Source: Paenirhodobacter populi
GTDB taxonomy: Bacteria; Pseudomonadota; Alphaproteobacteria; Rhodobacterales; Rhodobacteraceae
Direction of reading: 5' to 3'
DNA length: 64,000 nt
Assembly (NCBI RefSeq): GCF_004022215.1
Contig: NZ_SAUZ01000005.1
Coordinates: 1-64,000, forward strand
In this document: in pieces, positions 36,620-44,128 of the stretch
Position numbering within the stretch: the first letter of the stretch is position 1
Layout of the letters: each line of letters starts with the position of its first letter
Notes under the pieces: model-generated
Database searches by the model: none
Seen by the model: the letters and a program-made list of their open reading frames with translations, nothing else
What the model was told of the DNA's origin: nothing
Position numbers and translations under genes: made by a program

Positions 36620-37324
36620 CTAACCTTTCGGATGCAGATGCGGATGGCTGTGCAGATGCGGATGGTCGTGGATTTCCGCCTCGACCAGCGCGCCGTCGCG
36701 CATCAGCATCGCGCGGGTGGCAAGCCCGGCGACGAAGCCCGCGTCATGCGACACAAGGATCATCGCCCCGTCGAACGCCTCCAGCGCAGCGCGCAGCCGC
36801 GCCATGTTTTCCGCGTCGATGCCGTTCGTCGGTTCATCGAGCAGCAGTACCTCGGGCCGCATCGCCAGCAGCCCGGCCAGACAGACGAGCCGCTTTTCCC
36901 CGCCCGAAAGCCGGTGCGTGACCCGTTCCGCCAGATGCGCGATGCCAAGCGCCTCCAGCGCCTCCAGCGCGCGGGCGCGCGCCCCGGCCGCCGTCGCGCC
37001 GGTGTTGAGCGGGCCGAAGGCCACATCCTCGGCCACGGTCGGGCAGAACAACTGATCGTCGCTGTCCTGAAACAGAAAGCCGATCCGCGGGCGGAAGGGG
37101 CGGAAGTCCCTTTCGCCACCGCAGGCGTTGCCGAACAGCGCGATCCGCCCCGCGACGGGTCGTTCCAGCCCGACGACGCACCGCAAAAGCGTGGTCTTCC
37201 CCGCCCCGTTCGGCCCGACGATCGCCAGCCGCTCGCGCGTCCCCAGCCGCAGCGACAGCCCGCGCAGCACCGCCGCACCGCCGCGCGTCACCGTCAGGTC
37301 CGACAGGGCGACGACCGGGATCAT
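36620..37324 (-). CDS. nikO: Nickel ECF transporter ATPase NikO
   Basis: A 234-residue ECF-type ATPase. Walker A is GPNGAGKTT, the Q-loop is GFLFQDSDDQLFCPTV, the signature is LSGGEKRL, Walker B is VLLLDEP and the switch histidine is in LVSHDAGFV. The end is a histidine-rich tail, HDHPHLHSHPHLHPKG, suited to binding Ni(II). The start at 37324 overlaps the nikQ stop (ATGA). With nikK, nikM, nikL and nikQ it forms the nikKMLQO order known for nickel uptake in alphaproteobacteria. Confidence 0.9.
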   Translation of the reverse strand: MIPVVALSDLTVTRGGAAVLRGLSLRLGTRERLAIVGPNGAGKTTLLRCVVGLERPVAGRIALFGNACGGERDFRPFRPRIGFLFQDSDDQLFCPTVAEDVAFGPLNTGATAAGARARALEALEALGIAHLAERVTHRLSGGEKRLVCLAGLLAMRPEVLLLDEPTNGIDAENMARLRAALEAFDGAMILVSHDAGFVAGLATRAMLMRDGALVEAEIHDHPHLHSHPHLHPKG

Positions 37325-38031
37325 CCGCGATCCGCCAGCACAAGCACGACGCCCAGCCCCGCCGTCAGCACCACCCCGCGCCAGTCCCGCAGGCCCGGCC
37401 GGGGCAGGGCGGCATGGGGAAAGCGGCCGGTGAACCCCCGGCAGCGCATCGCCTCGTCCACCCGGCGGGCGCGGTCCAGCGCGCGCAGGATCACCATCCC
37501 GATCAGGTTGCCGTAGCTGCGCCAGCTGTGCCGGTTCGTGCCGGGGCGAAAGCCGCGCGCCCGCATCGCCTCGCGCAGGCGGCGGATCTCGTCGCGGATC
37601 AGCGCCAGATAGCGCGGCGTCAGGGCAAAGATCCGCACCAGCGGCTCGGGCAGGCGCAGGGCATGCAGCGCGGCGCCCAGCCGGGCGGGCTCCACCGCGC
37701 CCAGAAACGCCAGCAGCACCAGCGCCGAGGCCAGCACCTTGCACGCCAGCAGCGCCGCCCGCGCCAGCCCCTCGCGGCTCATCTCCAGCGGGCCGAGGGT
37801 CAGCAGCGGCGTTCCCGGCAGGGTGAAGGGCAGCATGACGAACAGCAGCAGAACGAACCCCTCGACATGGCGCAACCGGCGCAGGGGAACGCGCCCAAGG
37901 CTCGCCACCGCCAGCACCGCCAGCGCGGCACCGGCCACCGGCAGGTGGCTCAGTTGCGACAGACACGCCACCAGCACGAAGGCCGCGATCAGCCGCAGCC
38001 GCAGATCCCCGGGCACCAGCCGCGCGATCAC
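37321..38031 (-). CDS. nikQ: Nickel ECF transporter transmembrane protein NikQ (CbiQ family)
   Basis: A 236-residue membrane protein of the EcfT/CbiQ family. The start is GTG at 38031, overlapping the nikL stop by 4 nt; no ATG fits. Several helices are followed by two cytoplasmic coupling motifs, REAMRARGF and DEAMRCRGF, which bind the ATPases. It couples NikO to the NikM-NikL-NikK substrate unit. Confidence 0.88.
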   Translation of the reverse strand: MIARLVPGDLRLRLIAAFVLVACLSQLSHLPVAGAALAVLAVASLGRVPLRRLRHVEGFVLLLFVMLPFTLPGTPLLTLGPLEMSREGLARAALLACKVLASALVLLAFLGAVEPARLGAALHALRLPEPLVRIFALTPRYLALIRDEIRRLREAMRARGFRPGTNRHSWRSYGNLIGMVILRALDRARRVDEAMRCRGFTGRFPHAALPRPGLRDWRGVVLTAGLGVVLVLADRG

Positions 38032-38582
38032 CGCCGCCCCCGCAGGTAAAGCCCCATCCCCGCCAGCCCGACGATCAGAAACAGGCCCGACAGGACATCG
38101 GTGATCCGCATCCGCGAATCCATCGCCTCGATCCGTTCGAGAAGGGGCGCGATCTGGCGTTGCACAGCACGCTCCACGGCTTCGGTGTCGGGTGCGGGCG
38201 CGGCGCTCCTCCCGCCGTCGGCCAGCGAGGCCGGGGCAGGCGCCACCGGCGCCACCGGGGGGGCGCCGAACCTCTCGGCTTTCACCACCGCCTCGGCCAT
38301 ATGGCCATCGTGGGTGTCGATCCGCACGGCGATGTCGTCGGTGACTGGATCGGGCGCAGTAAAGCGATAGCGTCCCTCGCCATCCGTCCGGCCCTGCGTG
38401 ATACGGGCACCACCCGCATCCTGCGCCCACCAGTCCGCTCCCTGCGCTCGCCCGCCGCCGACGAAGAAGGCGTAGCCCGTCACGTCCCCTCCCTCCACCG
38501 TCGCGAACAGCCGCAGCTTGTGCGCCTCGGCGGGCAGGGCGAGCGACAGGAACAGGATCAGCGGCAGGATCAGGCGGGTCAT
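38028..38582 (-). CDS. nikL: Nickel transporter auxiliary membrane protein NikL
   Basis: A 184-residue protein with an N-terminal signal (MTRLILPLILFLSLALPAEA), a periplasmic domain beginning HKLRLFATVEGG, an alanine/proline linker (about residues 107-130), a short coiled region (ERAVQRQIAPLLERIEAMD) and one C-terminal helix (DVLSGLFLIVGLAGMGLYL). This bitopic layout and the position between nikM and nikQ fit NikL, the accessory subunit that replaces NikN in nikKMLQO systems. The first mature residue is a histidine, possibly a metal ligand. Confidence 0.8.
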   Translation of the reverse strand: MTRLILPLILFLSLALPAEAHKLRLFATVEGGDVTGYAFFVGGGRAQGADWWAQDAGGARITQGRTDGEGRYRFTAPDPVTDDIAVRIDTHDGHMAEAVVKAERFGAPPVAPVAPAPASLADGGRSAAPAPDTEAVERAVQRQIAPLLERIEAMDSRMRITDVLSGLFLIVGLAGMGLYLRGRR

Positions 38583-39193
38583 CGCACCTCCGGCGCAAGC
38601 GCCTCGGGTTCCACCCGCGCAAGGAAGCCGATCACCGTCGCGGTGATCGCCGCTTCGGCCAGCGCCAGCGGCAGGTAAGTCGCCAGCATCACCCGCGCGA
38701 TGGGCATGTAATCCGAGGACGACAGCCACAGGCACAGCGCCACCATGCCGCCCGTCGCCAGCACCGATCCGCCGCCCGCCAGCGCGGCCAGCGCCGCCCG
38801 CTGCCCGGGCCGCACCGCGCGGCGGATCGGCGGACCCAGCACCATTCCCGCGATCACCCCCGGCAGCGCGATGTTCACCGTATTCACCCCCAGCGTCGTC
38901 AGCCCGCCGAACCCGAACAGCACCACCTGCAGCACCAGCCCGACCAGCACCGCGACAAAGGCACCGCTGCCCAGCATGATCCCCATCAGCCCGGACAGCA
39001 GCAGATGCACGCTCGACGGCCCCATCGGCACCGAAATCAGCGACCCGGCGAAGAAGGCCGCCGACAAGAGCGCCGTGCGCAGGATCGCCCGGTCGTCCAG
39101 CCGCCGCAGCGCCAGTCCGATCCCCGCCGCCGCGATCGCCGCCCCGCCGATCAGCACCGGCGCCGCCAGGATGCCGTCCGGGATATGCGCCAT
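38579..39193 (-). CDS. nikM: Nickel ECF transporter substrate-binding membrane protein NikM
   Basis: A 204-residue integral membrane protein of the CbiM/NikM family starting MAHIPDGILAAPVLIGG; the N-terminal Met-Ala-His motif contributes nickel ligands in NikM. Here an Ala sits between Met and His, giving His at position 3. Further segments are MGPSSVHLLLSGLMGIMLG (with a second conserved histidine) and FGGLTTLGVNTVNIALPG. It overlaps nikL by 4 nt and follows nikK without a gap. It binds and moves Ni(II), or Co(II) in relatives. Confidence 0.9.
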   Translation of the reverse strand: MAHIPDGILAAPVLIGGAAIAAAGIGLALRRLDDRAILRTALLSAAFFAGSLISVPMGPSSVHLLLSGLMGIMLGSGAFVAVLVGLVLQVVLFGFGGLTTLGVNTVNIALPGVIAGMVLGPPIRRAVRPGQRAALAALAGGGSVLATGGMVALCLWLSSSDYMPIARVMLATYLPLALAEAAITATVIGFLARVEPEALAPEVR

Positions 39194-39961
39194 CTACTCG
39201 GCCCTCATGTCGGTGGCCTTCACCCAGATCAGCCCGCCCTCCTCGACGGGCACCTCGCGCCCGTCGGGGGCGGTCATGGTCCGCTCCGCCTCGGTCAGCG
39301 CGGCAAAGCCCCACCATCCGGCGCGCGGCATCGCATAGCTGAAGGTGCCGTTCGCGTCGGCCTTGATGACCTGCGTGATGAAATCGTCGTTCGGCGGGAT
39401 GACGGAGCCGTCGTTGATGAACTCCACCTCGATCTCGGCAAAGGGCACGGGCGCGCCGTCCCTGCGCACGATGCCGGTGAACAGGTTCCCGGTCCACAGC
39501 CCGTTCGGCCGGCTCAGCGGCTCGATCTCCACCGGCAGGCCGACGAGCGCATCCCACCCCTCGCCCGAGGCGAAGCCATCCACCACCACCTTGGCGTAAT
39601 GCACGATCATCTTGCCCTCGGCCGGTTCCCAATAGGGCTGCGGGGCGACGAAGAAGATCGCGGCGCCGGGCTCGGTCAGGTCGGTGGTCGCGGTCCAGGC
39701 CTGCACCCCGTCGATCGGCGCGGGGGTCAGCGCGGGCAGCAGGTCACGCACCGCGCCCTGCGCCAGCATCCCGAACCGCGCGGGGCGCGCCATCTCCATC
39801 ACCGGGCCGCGCTCGACCGGATGGGTGAAGGTCAGGTCGATCGTCACCGGCCCGCCATCGGCCAGCACATCCGCCAGCGGGATGATCTGCTGGAAATGCG
39901 CCTGCGCGGGCAGGGCGGCAAGACAGGCGATCGCCAGTCCGGCGGGCGGCAGAAGGCGCAT
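39194..39961 (-). CDS. nikK: Periplasmic nickel-transport component NikK (DUF4198)
   Basis: A 255-residue exported protein. The signal peptide MRLLPPAGLAIACLAALPAQA ends just before HFQQIIPLADVL. The body reads as a DUF4198-type beta-rich periplasmic protein (VTIDLTFTHPVERGPVMEM, PEGKMIVHYAKVVVDGF, WGFAALTEAERTM). It is the first gene of nikKMLQO; GGAG precedes the ATG. The NikR operator lies 9 nt ahead of the start codon. In the genetic context it probably collects nickel for NikM. Confidence 0.85.
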   Translation of the reverse strand: MRLLPPAGLAIACLAALPAQAHFQQIIPLADVLADGGPVTIDLTFTHPVERGPVMEMARPARFGMLAQGAVRDLLPALTPAPIDGVQAWTATTDLTEPGAAIFFVAPQPYWEPAEGKMIVHYAKVVVDGFASGEGWDALVGLPVEIEPLSRPNGLWTGNLFTGIVRRDGAPVPFAEIEVEFINDGSVIPPNDDFITQVIKADANGTFSYAMPRAGWWGFAALTEAERTMTAPDGREVPVEEGGLIWVKATDMRAE

Positions 39962-39970
39962 GGGGACTCC

Positions 39971-39998
39971 GTATGAATAATTCTCGGATTATTCATAC
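39971..39998. promoter_or_regulatory. NikR operator between nikK and nikR
   Basis: GTATGAATAA-TTCTCGGA-TTATTCATAC is a perfect 10-bp inverted repeat with an 8-nt centre. It contains GTATGA-N16-TCATAC, exactly the half-site arrangement of the E. coli nik operator. It lies 9 nt before nikK (minus) and 65 nt before nikR (plus), so one dimeric or tetrameric NikR could control both genes. Its AT content is far above the surroundings. Confidence 0.9.
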
Positions 39999-40063
39999 AT
40001 CGGGGGCGCCCCCGCGCAACCCTTTCGCTTCTCAAGCCCGCGAGCGGCTGCTAGGCTCGCGCC

Positions 40064-40549
40064 ATGCAACGCACGACGATCACGCTCGATGACGATCTCG
40101 CCGCCGAACTGGAGGCCTATCTCGCGCGCAACGGCGGGCAGAGCCGGTCCGAGGCGATCCGCGACCTGATCCGCCGCGGTCTTGGCCAAAGCGCCCCGCC
40201 GCCCGGGGGCGCGGGCTGCTATGGCATCGTCAGCTATGTGGTCGATCAGTCGGTGCGCAATCTGGCGGCGCGGCTGCCGCAGGGGCGGCTCGACCGGCAC
40301 GACCAGACGGTGGCGGCGCTGTCGGTGCCGCTCGATCACAGCCATGCGGTCGAGATCTCGGTGATGCGCGGCGCGGCGCGGGACGTTTCGGCCTATGCCG
40401 AGGCGCTGTTTCTGGAACGCGGCGTGATGCACGGCGCGCTCGGCCTGATCCCGGTGGCCGAGGATACGGTCTGGCATGTCCACAACGACGGGTCGAGCCA
40501 TGCCCACAGCCATCCGCGGGTTCTGGCAGGCTTCAGGGGCACCGAATGA
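40064..40549 (+). CDS. nikR: NikR-family ribbon-helix-helix regulator lacking canonical nickel ligands
   Basis: A 161-residue NikR-type protein: N-terminal ribbon-helix-helix MQRTTITLDDDLAAELEAYL, with SRSEAIRDLIRRGL, then an ACT-like C-domain (GIVSYVVDQSVRNLAARL onward). It aligns without gaps with E. coli NikR over residues 57-97, but the four Ni ligands His76, His87, His89 and Cys95 correspond here to Leu76, Ser87, Pro89 and Ala95. His79, His92 and His94 remain, and the C-terminus is histidine-rich (HVHNDGSSHAHSHPR). The partner operon and the operator are those of NikR. Metal sensing must therefore use other residues, or another signal. Confidence 0.88.
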   Translation: MQRTTITLDDDLAAELEAYLARNGGQSRSEAIRDLIRRGLGQSAPPPGGAGCYGIVSYVVDQSVRNLAARLPQGRLDRHDQTVAALSVPLDHSHAVEISVMRGAARDVSAYAEALFLERGVMHGALGLIPVAEDTVWHVHNDGSSHAHSHPRVLAGFRGTE

Positions 40550-41291
40550 CACAGACGATCGAAACACAGACCATCGAAACAAGGACCATCGACCTGCCGG
40601 GCGTCGCGAACCTGCGCGATCTGGGCGACCTGCCGTCCCCGGGCGGCATGACCCGGCGCGGCAGGCTTTTGCGCTCGGACAGCCTGCACCGGCTCGATGC
40701 GGCGGGACAGGGGCGGCTGCGCGACCTCGGCCTGACCACGGTGATCGACCTGCGCGCGGCGAGCGGGCCGCCCGCGCCCCCAACCCCTTCGCCACGATGC
40801 CGGGGATCGCCTATCACAACATCTCGCTCTTCGAGGGGATCCTGCCGCGCGCGGAGGCCCCGGATGTCCTGCAGGACATGTATCTGCGGGCGCTGGAGGC
40901 GCGCGGCGCGGCCTTCGCGCAGGTCATGACCCTGATCGCCGAAGCACCCGAGGGCGCGGTCCTGTTCCATTGCGCGGCGGGCAAGGATCGGACGGGGATG
41001 ACGGCGGCGCTGGCCCTGACGATGGCGGGCGTGGCCGAAGAGGCGGTGGTCGCCGATTACGCGCTGACGGCGGACCGGCTGGCGCCGATCCGCGAAACCC
41101 TGATCGCCCATGCCGTGGCCGAGGGCTACAGCGCCGAAAGCTTCCGCCCGCTGCTCGCCTGCGCGCCCGAAACCATGGCGGCCACCCTCGCCGCCCTGCG
41201 CGCGCGCTTCGGCTCGGTCCCCGACTATCTCGCGGGCATCGGCCTCGGTCGGGCGGCGCTTGCCCGGCTCGAACGGCGCCTGACGGCCTGA
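40546..41291 (+). pseudogene. Tyrosine/serine phosphatase (DUF1339/Y_phosphatase3-like) gene with a -1 frameshift
   Basis: The first frame (from ATG 40546, overlapping nikR) gives LPGVANLRDLGDLPSPGGM and LTTVIDLRAAS, and the frame at the 3' part gives NPFATMPGIAYHNISLFEG, HCAAGKDRTGMTAALAL and ALRARFGSVPDYL. Together these make one family member with the catalytic HCXXGXXR loop. The two parts lie in different frames, with the break at about 40755-40785 in a GC-rich run (one base missing relative to an intact gene). A true mutation or an assembly error are both possible. If intact the protein would have about 247 residues. The sequence supports an inactive gene as given. Confidence 0.75.
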
Positions 41292-41445: not shown

Positions 41446-43623
41446 CTACTCCCGCTCCGGATCTACGCGCAACAGCCGCAGCGCGTTCAGCGTGACCAGA
41501 ACCGTCGCCCCGGTATCCGCGAGGATCGCCAGCCACAGCCCCGTCACCCCAAGGATCGAGGTCAGCAGGAACACCCCCTTCAGTCCAAGCGCCAGCGCGA
41601 TGTTCTGCCGGATATTCGCCATCGTCCGGCGCGCGAGCAGGATCTGCGCCGCGACATCCGTCACACGGTCGCGCAGGATCGCGGCATCGGCGGTCTCCAG
41701 CGCCACGTCGGTGCCCGATCCCATCGCCACGCCCACATCCGCCTGCTTCAGCGCCGGGGCGTCGTTGATGCCGTCGCCGACCATCATCACCCCGCCGGTT
41801 GCAGACAATTCGCGGATCGCGGCCAGCTTGTCCTCGGGCAGCATTCCGGCGCGGTAATCCATGCCCAGCCCGCCCGCGATCGCCGCCGCCGTGCGGGGAT
41901 TGTCGCCGGTCAGGATCGTCGCCCCCAGACCCATCGCCTTCAGCTGCCGCATCGCCTCGGGCGCGTCGTCGCGGGGTTCGTCGCGCAGCGCGATCAGGCC
42001 AAGCGCCCGGTCCCCGCGCCAGACCACCACCGTGGTCTTGCCCTGATGTTCGAGCTGCGTGGCTGCCTCGAACCCGGCATCCGACAGCAGACCCGCCTCG
42101 CGCGCATGTCGCGGCGAGCAGACGCCGGCGGGGATGCCGTCGACCTCGGCCTCGACCCCCCGGCCGGGGATGGCGCGGGCCGCGCGCGCGGGCAGGGCAG
42201 GCGCACCCTGCGCCGCAGCATGAGCCGCAACCGCCACGGCCAGCGGATGGCTGGATCCCGCCTCGACCGCGGCGGCGGCGGCCAGCATCCCGGCTACCGT
42301 CGCACCGTCCAGCGCCACCACATCGGTCACCGCCGGGCGGCCGTGGGTCAGCGTGCCGGTCTTGTCGAAGGCGACATGGCGCACCTTTGCCGCCGCCTCG
42401 ATCACCGCGCCGCCCTTCATCAGCAACCCGCGCCGCGCCCCCGCCGACAGGGCCGAGGCGATCGACGCGGGGACCGAGATCACCAGCGCGCAGGGGCAGC
42501 CGATCAGCAGAAGCGCCAGCCCGCGATAGAGCCATGTCCCCCAGTCGGCGCCGAAGGCCAGCGGCGGCACCAGCACCACCAGCGCCGCGAGGCCGGTGAT
42601 CGCGGGCATGTACCAGCGGCTGAAACGGTCGATGAAACGCTCGGTGGGGGCGCGGGCTTCCTCAGCCTCCTCGACCAGCCGGACGATGCGGGAAATGGTG
42701 TTGTCGGCGGCGGCCCTGTCGACGGTGACACGCAGCGCGGCCTCGGTGTTCACCGAACCGGCAAAAACCTTTTCGCCCGGGCCCCGCGTGCGGGGGATGC
42801 TCTCGCCGGTGACCGGGCTTTCATCGACGCCCGAGATCCCGTCGAGCACCGTTCCGTCCGCCGGGATCCGCGCGCCCGGGCGCACCAGCACGACCTGCCC
42901 GGGCCGCAGGCTGTCGGCCGCGACTTCGTGCACACCGTCGCCGGTTTCCAGCAGCGCGCTGCGCGGCACGAGGCCCGCCAGCGCCCGGATGCCCGCGCGT
43001 GCCTTGCCCGCCGCGACGCCTTCCAGCACCTCGCCCACCGCGAAGAGGAAGACGACCAGCGCCGCCTCCGCCGCCGCGCCGATGAACAGCGCGCCGATGG
43101 CGGCGATCGTCATCAGGCTTTCGATGGTGAAGGGCTGGCCCATGCGCAGCGCGGCAAAGGCCCGCCGCGCGATGGGGGTGAGCCCGATCAGACAGGCGCC
43201 GGCAAAGGCCCATTCGCCCGCCGCCCCGCCGAAAACCCAGCGGACCGCCCAGGCGATCAGCAAGAGCCCCCCGGTGAGCAGCACCAGACGCCCCCCCGCC
43301 GTGCGATACCACGACAGGTCGCGGTCGGCCGGATCGCCGTGGGAATGGTGATCGTGGGCAACGTGGCCGGGCGGCGCATCCTTTGCCGCGATCCTGTAGC
43401 CAAGCGCCCGCACCGTCGCCTCGACCGCCCGACGCGGGGTCGCGGTTTCGTCGAGCGTCAGCCGCAGCCGTTCCGACATCAGCGCGAGATCCACCCCGGA
43501 CACGCCGGGCAGCCTGCCGACGGCGTTGCGGACCTTGGCCGCGCAGCCCGCGCAATCCATGCCCGTCACGGTCCATTCGCAGGTTTCCGGGGCGCTTTGC
43601 GGCTGTGCGGTGTCTTTCGCCAT
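41446..43623 (-). CDS. zntA: Heavy-metal P1B-type ATPase (Zn/Cd/Pb exporter, ZntA-like)
   Basis: A 725-residue P-type ATPase. The N-terminal metal domain has GMDCAGC (Cys24, Cys27). A short histidine stretch HVAHDHHSHG follows. Core motifs are CPC in a membrane helix (IGCPCALVIS), DKTGT with phosphorylated Asp, HP locus in SSHPLAV and GDGINDAPALK. It exports divalent or soft metals from the cytoplasm; CPC with a ZntR/CadR-type regulator next to it argues for Zn, Cd or Pb rather than Cu. It is divergent from a MerR gene with a MerR-type promoter between them. Confidence 0.92.
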   Translation of the reverse strand: MAKDTAQPQSAPETCEWTVTGMDCAGCAAKVRNAVGRLPGVSGVDLALMSERLRLTLDETATPRRAVEATVRALGYRIAAKDAPPGHVAHDHHSHGDPADRDLSWYRTAGGRLVLLTGGLLLIAWAVRWVFGGAAGEWAFAGACLIGLTPIARRAFAALRMGQPFTIESLMTIAAIGALFIGAAAEAALVVFLFAVGEVLEGVAAGKARAGIRALAGLVPRSALLETGDGVHEVAADSLRPGQVVLVRPGARIPADGTVLDGISGVDESPVTGESIPRTRGPGEKVFAGSVNTEAALRVTVDRAAADNTISRIVRLVEEAEEARAPTERFIDRFSRWYMPAITGLAALVVLVPPLAFGADWGTWLYRGLALLLIGCPCALVISVPASIASALSAGARRGLLMKGGAVIEAAAKVRHVAFDKTGTLTHGRPAVTDVVALDGATVAGMLAAAAAVEAGSSHPLAVAVAAHAAAQGAPALPARAARAIPGRGVEAEVDGIPAGVCSPRHAREAGLLSDAGFEAATQLEHQGKTTVVVWRGDRALGLIALRDEPRDDAPEAMRQLKAMGLGATILTGDNPRTAAAIAGGLGMDYRAGMLPEDKLAAIRELSATGGVMMVGDGINDAPALKQADVGVAMGSGTDVALETADAAILRDRVTDVAAQILLARRTMANIRQNIALALGLKGVFLLTSILGVTGLWLAILADTGATVLVTLNALRLLRVDPERE

Positions 43624-43659
43624 GATCCTCTCCGTCCGGGCTTGTCTCCGTCGAAGGGG

Positions 43660-43690
43660 AACCTAATCTCTCTAGTAACTATAGCTTCAA
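43660..43690 (-). promoter_or_regulatory. MerR-type promoter and operator for the P-type ATPase gene
   Basis: On the minus strand -35 TTGAAG and -10 TAGGTT are 19 nt apart, the long spacer used by MerR-activated promoters. Inside the spacer lies the dyad CTATAG-TTA-CTAGAG, close to known ZntR/CadR/PbrR-type operators. The start codon of the ATPase gene is 37 nt downstream of the -10 box. Confidence 0.85.
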
Positions 43691-43699
43691 GAGGCCGCG

Positions 43700-44128
43700 A
43701 TGCTGACGATCGGAAAACTTGCGCAGGACACGGGCGTGAAGGTGCCCACGATCCGCTATTACGAACAGATCGGGCTGCTGCCCGAACCGGGGCGCAGCGC
43801 GGGGAACCAGCGGCTTTACGGACAGGGGCAGCTGGAACGGCTGCGCTTCATCCGCCATGCCCGCGATCTGGGCTTTCCGCTGGAGGCGATCCGGGACCTG
43901 CTGTCGCTGTCCGACCGGCCGGACCAGCCCTGTGCGGCGGCGGACGGGATCGCGCGGGCGCAGCTTGACGCCGTGCGGGCGCGGATCCGGCGGCTGAAGG
44001 CGCTGGAGGGGGAGCTGGAACGCATGGTCGCGCAATGCGCGCACGGCACGATCCGCGATTGCCGGGTGATCGAGGTGCTGGGCGATCACGCGCTTTGCGC
44101 GCAGGACCATCCCGCCGCCGCCGGGTGA
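43700..44128 (+). CDS. MerR-family regulator of heavy-metal export (ZntR/CadR/PbrR-like)
   Basis: A 142-residue MerR protein. The helix-turn-helix is LAQDTGVKVPTIRYYEQIGLLP, followed by a long dimerisation helix. Metal ligands are Cys78, Cys113 and Cys121 (CAHGTIRDC) with a histidine nearby, the pattern of Zn/Cd/Pb sensors rather than CueR. The start at 43700 is 10 nt beyond the -35 box of the ATPase promoter, so binding there could also control its own expression. It activates the divergent exporter gene when metal is bound. Confidence 0.9.
   Translation: MLTIGKLAQDTGVKVPTIRYYEQIGLLPEPGRSAGNQRLYGQGQLERLRFIRHARDLGFPLEAIRDLLSLSDRPDQPCAAADGIARAQLDAVRARIRRLKALEGELERMVAQCAHGTIRDCRVIEVLGDHALCAQDHPAAAG

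Follow-up and report, generated by a model that had tools for sequence, protein, structure and literature searches.

How a protein with the fold, the operator and the neighbouring transporter genes of the nickel-responsive repressor NikR might work without any of the four canonical nickel ligands is the question raised by a locus in the window, i.e., the whole stretch of 64,000 nucleotides of Paenirhodobacter populi DNA that was analysed. NikR normally shuts down nickel import once it has bound nickel. A pattern scan and a palindrome search placed a NikR operator, GTATGA-N16-TCATAC, at 39971..39998, 9 bp from the start codon of nikK and 65 bp from that of nikR. It has no mismatch in the scan, which at up to three mismatches returns five matches where 5.8 are expected by chance, so that only the perfect operator stands out, and none of 100 shuffles produced a match to its full palindrome. 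The perfect consensus reported in the earlier note is thus upheld, but the perfect arms of the inverted repeat are 11 bp long (GTATGAATAAT) and not 10 bp. The known enterobacterial NikR signal is GTATGAT-N13/14-ATCATAC, according to part of the text of PMC545781. A scan of 39900-40120 for sigma-70 promoters and terminators found nothing.

Divergently from nikR, on the reverse strand, runs the nikKMLQO operon that the earlier note had placed next to it. Pfam bears out nikK (39194..39961; DUF4198, PF10670, 1.6e-53), which is the first gene, nikM (38579..39193; the CbiM-type substrate-specific component, PF01891, 1e-51), nikQ (37321..38031; CbiQ, PF02361, 1.2e-32) and nikO (36620..37324; the ABC ATPase, ABC_tran, PF00005, 1.6e-30), whereas nikL (38028..38582) has no Pfam match and is named from its position and from its occurrence at the same place in relatives. 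Such NikKMLQO sets are described as nickel systems (PMC2667541, in part), and nikK and nikL have been proposed as extra parts of nickel transporters (PMC545781, in part). The C-terminal end of NikO is rich in histidine (HDHPHLHSHPHLHPKG, window 36620-36670), as is that of NikR (see below), so that the ATPase and the regulator of one system both carry a histidine tail. The nik region is also adjoined by a gene for a ZntA-like P-type ATPase on the reverse strand and a divergent gene for a MerR-family regulator on the forward strand (41446-44128).

The nikR-like gene itself (40064..40549, forward strand) is an open reading frame with an ATG start that encodes 161 amino acids, and its assignment rests on Pfam, NCBIfam and an AlphaFold2 model. 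The protein consists of an RHH_1 domain (residues 3-41; PF01402, 2.4e-10) and a NikR_C domain (residues 54-128; PF08753, 58.5 bits with a cut-off of 22), and scores 124 bits against NF002815 (cut-off 83) and 123.8 bits against TIGR02793 (cut-off 175). In canonical NikR nickel is bound by His87, His89 and Cys95 together with His76 of the neighbouring subunit (review PMC7055735, in part). With phmmer, residues 1-131 align without a gap to residues 1-131 of E. coli NikR (1q5v; E 1.8e-26), as the earlier note had claimed, and its reading of the four ligand positions also stands: residues 76, 87, 89 and 95 are Leu, Ser, Pro and Ala, so that the His3Cys square-planar ligands are all absent. The codons concerned lie on the forward strand at 40286..40291 (Arg75, which is invariant in the group described below, and Leu76), 40322..40330 (Ser87-Val88-Pro89) and 40346..40348 (Ala95). 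His79, His92 and His123 are retained. The AlphaFold2 model (pLDDT 90.4), a metal-free monomer, was superposed by Foldseek on the nickel-bound C-domain of E. coli NikR (1q5y_B) over 80 columns with an rmsd of 0.9 Å and a TM score of 0.92 by target, which indicates that the ligand register is unshifted; a shifted register was considered and is ruled out by the gapless alignment and the fold match. Neither a second NikR_C protein nor an RcnR-type regulator (PF02583) was found in the genome of P. populi. The nikR stop codon is overlapped by a Y_phosphatase3-type gene (40546-41291), which is seemingly split over two frames near 40770, in what appears to be a frameshift or a sequencing error.

Proteins of this kind are not confined to P. 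populi. A search of 394 genomes of the same family for NikR_C proteins gave 20 positives with one protein each, of which 16 are of the window type and four are canonical; none of the 16 genomes with the window type yielded a second match, three of these genomes being less than 90% complete. A set of 162 non-identical NikRs, including that of E. coli, was assembled from the same-family genomes, from samples of the class, order and phylum, and from a scan of named genomes that contributed the best 80 of at least 571 confirmed loci. All four ligands are present in 114 of these, 35 have Ser87-x-Pro89 (henceforth SxP) and 13 are changed in other ways, counts that are not family-wide frequencies since the set is centred on the window. 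In a tree of 102 rows, built by a quick method with SH-aLRT values and no bootstrap, from which 22 of the loci collected by then, most of them of a deltaproteobacterial type, were omitted and in which columns 75, 76, 87, 89 and 95 were masked, all 34 SxP rows fall on one side of a branch with an SH-aLRT of 99. The SxP NikRs are, therefore, an alphaproteobacterial clade of single origin and not a one-off mutant, and a residue found in 35 out of 35 of them does not represent 35 independent events. Named members, again from the best 80 of at least 571 loci, belong to the Rhodobacteraceae, Ancylobacter, Kaistia, Methylorubrum, Martelella, Pannonibacter and Cohaesibacter, and one member of the clade is annotated as nickel-responsive NikR. 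Roseomonas marmotae, additional to the 35, holds both types (ligands judged by eye) on plasmids p1318-3 and p1318-4 (L204 and L205): its SxP nikR lies beside urease accessory genes and an operon resembling nikKMLQO, its canonical nikR beside nikA, nikB, nikC and two ABC ATPase genes, and this strain thus offers a natural comparison. A phage collection yielded four records of 36-44% identity, two of them long Salmonella records and two of ca. 1.6 kb named Escherichia phage.

At a median pairwise identity of 54% (n = 35), the clade shares 24 invariant columns. Arg75, Ser87 and Pro89 occur in all 35 proteins, while Arg75 occurs in none of the 114 canonical ones. Residue 76 is Leu in 20, His in nine, Gln in five and Met in one, and residue 95 is Ala in 17, Ser in 12, Thr in five and Met in one; although the window protein has none of the four ligands, His76 thus persists in nine of its 35 relatives. 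Ser87 is encoded by TCN in 30 cases and by AGY in five, and Arg75 by four different codons, indicating that the residues and not the DNA have been kept. Seven of the invariant columns are histidine or cysteine, i.e., C52, H79, H92, H123, H138, H140 and H148, and His150 (34/35) and His146 (30/35) come close. Canonical NikRs often share His79 (78/81), His92 (61/81) and His123 (72/81). The earlier note had put forward His79, His92 and His94 as candidate core ligands, of which the first two are conserved; His94 varies among the relatives and is rejected as a metal ligand. Position 25, which is Tyr in 105 of the 114 canonical proteins, is Ala, Val or Gly in every SxP protein (Ala in 30), and positions 38 (Arg in 32/34) and 116 (Phe in 33/34) are also distinctive. 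Arg3 and Thr5, which are base contacts in E. coli NikR, are invariant (35/35), as is Glu30, and residue 34 is always Asp or Glu. The last two positions provide the retained side chains of the interdomain K+ site, Glu30 and Asp34, to which residue 116 also belongs (PMC7055735, in part). We read this pattern of conservation as pointing to selection for a new state rather than to decay.

The operators tell a similar story of retention. Scanning 21 SxP-bearing genomes at up to one mismatch gave 28 sites and six matches to a reversed control pattern. Exactly one perfect operator is present in 12 of these genomes, in all 12 at nikR and/or nikK; in four it lies directly upstream of a nikK that is 243 kb (G051) or 3.5 kb (G273) away from nikR or on another contig (G341, G365). 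The other nine genomes have no perfect operator. Among these, G348 has a one-mismatch site upstream of an operon that includes a CbiM-like gene, G309 has one at the start of a gene for a family-5 solute-binding protein, and in G177 and G233 such sites lie ca. 80 bp and ca. 250 bp upstream of nikR, respectively. For G832 and G911 the best sites are away from nik genes, the control pattern matching equally often in G911. No operator at up to one mismatch was found in G046, G083 and G182, of which G046 has a two-mismatch site (GTATGC...GCATAC) between nikR and nikK, and G182 one upstream of nikR; the site of the SxP type in Roseomonas marmotae likewise has two mismatches. In 16 named SxP loci (L021-L036, from the best 80 of at least 571 loci), nikK, M, L and Q are adjacent in seven, L036 having its nikK ca. 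4 kb off, and 11 have a site of no more than one mismatch in the 250 bp preceding nikR. A family-5 binding protein gene adjoins nikR in L026, L031 and L033 and a CbiM/CbiQ pair in L029, in L032 a perfect site precedes nikA (TIGR02294, 685.6 bits with a cut-off of 393) by 11 bp, and at L023 and L035 neither an operator nor a match to the nik proteins of the window was found. A need for nickel is indicated by strong urease matches in 19 of the 21 genomes, that of P. populi included (G177 has none and G348 a weak one only). Matches to the NiFe-hydrogenase family occur in eight of the 21, those in G177 and G182 being partial or weak, and none was found in the genome of P. populi. The SxP clade has thus kept the operator and the nickel-importer targets while losing the His3Cys site.

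For the C-terminal end of the protein, the model predicts a beta-hairpin (40424..40522, forward strand) with strands at residues 121-138 and 146-153 that bears His138, His140, His146, His148 and His150, its delineation resting on the model and on conservation; the mean pLDDT of successive ten-residue blocks from residue 121 onward is 94, 90, 90 and 85. Judging from the ends of the strands, we infer that His138 may lie opposite His146 and that the even-numbered histidines may share one face of the hairpin. The HxH...HxH tail occurs in all 35 SxP proteins, in 38 of the 67 canonical proteins of at least 145 amino acids and in 38 of the 114 canonical proteins overall. Its terminal motif with Phe157 is also universal in the clade (35/35) and is otherwise confined to L004, L005, L045 and L133, four canonical proteins that group together (support 100) near the SxP clade. 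The wider group that joins them with the SxP proteins (support 86) is internally a polytomy and includes a canonical protein without the Phe end (L102). Because the tail of these nearby canonical proteins has the same end, and the model of L045 has the same predicted hairpin, the tail is suggested to be older than the loss of the ligands and probably arose before it. By the same token, i.e., a hairpin predicted in L045 and a tail in 38 of 114 canonical proteins, the tail need not be a sensor. Cys52 had seemed a partner for the tail from raw counts (34/44 long versus 6/37 short canonical NikRs), but the tree leaves only three independent pairs for Cys52 and the tail, and only two for loss of the site and the tail, too few to bear out either link. 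The suggestion that the tail is the relocated sensing site is supported in part: its histidines at 138, 140 and 148 are invariant and an ordered hairpin is predicted, but the tail is not new.

The reasoning of the earlier note, that ligands lost while targets are kept mean moved sensing, metal independence or another signal, holds and is strengthened by the conserved clade, and although the choice among the three lies beyond what sequence can settle, it leans towards the first. The three invariant tail histidines, the nearly invariant His150 and the ordered predicted hairpin make the evidence lean towards nickel sensing that has shifted elsewhere within the protein. With somewhat less than even confidence, we favour the reading that the SxP NikR is a nickel-responsive repressor of nikKMLQO that senses through the predicted hairpin together with other invariant histidines or cysteine. 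The NikR fold, operator and targets have been retained and the His3Cys site replaced by Arg75 and Ser87-x-Pro89; nickel would now be bound by His138, His140, His146, His148 and His150, perhaps with Cys52, His79, His92 or His123. Arg75 would pack in or near the vacated interface and brace the tetramer without metal, and metal on the hairpin would set the orientation of the DNA-binding domains, with the coupling running through the altered interdomain contacts at 25, 38 and 116. Distances between histidines, the placement of Arg75 and the geometry between hairpin and hinge are inferred, given the monomeric and metal-free nature of the model. As to its history, it is possible, if far from assured, that a long-tailed ancestor with two metal sites lost the His3Cys site, that Arg75 was fixed as its metal-free substitute, and that the hairpin came to sense nickel with DNA recognition and targets unchanged.

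Arg75, Ser87 and Pro89, the diagnostic changes of the clade, would also suit a metal-independent repressor in which Arg75, with Ser87, replaces nickel structurally and locks the tetramer in its DNA-binding form, leaving nikKMLQO to be set by the amount of protein or some other signal. Positions 25, 38 and 116 change alongside, as if the coupling of the domains had been rebuilt, with 116 in the K+ site (PMC7055735, in part). We consider this rather unlikely, as it explains neither why the tail histidines were retained nor why a nickel importer in urease-bearing genomes would lose its nickel feedback. That nickel is still bound at or near the old site, by non-canonical donors together with His79 and His92, while the tail does no more than store or feed metal, would fit the presence of both histidines in all 35 proteins and the extra nickel sites beyond the square-planar one in structures of H. 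pylori NikR (PMC9860126, in part); with a strand ligand replaced by Pro89, no His or Cys gained at 75, 87, 89 or 95, and His76 in only nine of 35, it seems distinctly improbable. A change of ligands could also alter selectivity, and some members stand beside CbiM/CbiQ-type or peptide/nickel-type ABC genes, but sensing of cobalt, zinc or another signal is a slim prospect when the perfect sites located are those at nikR and/or nikK and the one at a TIGR02294 nikA, and one SxP locus lies beside urease genes. Finally, the ligand losses themselves and the low PF08753 scores might suggest a decaying, non-functional protein or an assembly artefact; this is barely credible when 35 members have open frames and invariant residues, when their codons show synonymous turnover, and when operators are retained, some of them away from nikR.

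A conserved clade that lacks the His3Cys site and yet remains linked to the usual operators and importers contrasts with the description of these sites as conserved among NikR homologues (PMC9860126, in part), and implies either that NikR has been uncoupled from nickel or that it has a second sensing site. The latter, if true, may also exist in long-tailed canonical NikRs. Both outcomes are open to direct testing, given that operator and target are known, as is a closely related canonical NikR that carries this tail. Among the literature matches listed, with subscription journals mostly outside their scope, no title or opening of an abstract describes a natural NikR without nickel ligands, and the available portions of PMC2667541, PMC7055735, PMC9860126, PMC4101488, PMC545781 and PMC11578231 contain no description of the SxP clade. 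Paracoccus yeei loses its urease activity when nikR is mutated (PMC11578231, in part); the NikR of another strain of that species, TT13, has the canonical ligands (judged by eye).

Among known systems, the window protein resembles E. coli NikR (1q5v, 2hza), the repressor of nikABCDE, in its RHH and NikR_C fold, gapless alignment over residues 1-131, operator consensus and nickel-transporter target, and differs from it in having Leu, Ser, Pro and Ala for His76, His87, His89 and Cys95, in Arg75, and in a histidine-rich hairpin where E. coli NikR has no tail. With the canonical long-tailed NikRs of Rhodobacteraceae (L004, L005, L045, L133) it shares the tail with the Phe end, and with L045 the predicted hairpin, but those proteins possess all four nickel ligands. 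Some or all of these are also absent from other NikR_C proteins (L116, L117, L188, L191, L196, L198, L199 and L200; L115; L201; L058), which differ from the SxP type in their residues (e.g., xHFS, xHHT) and among which only L058 has the HxH...HxH tail; L058, L115, L116 and L117 fall outside the SxP clade in the 102-row tree. The first eight of these, from other alphaproteobacterial genomes, are without His76, Cys95 and the tail. Isolated NikRs with partly or wholly changed ligands (HQHC, HQQR, RQPY and NLCR) were seen in Marinobacter (L047 and L051, whose nikR loci adjoin nikKMLQO), Roseicella (L058), L115 and L201. That the site of NikR can be rebuilt is illustrated by NikRm, a uranyl-binding variant of E. 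coli NikR engineered through the changes V72S, H76D and C95D (PMC4101488, in part); NikRm is artificial and has two ligands changed, whereas the window protein is natural and has all four changed.
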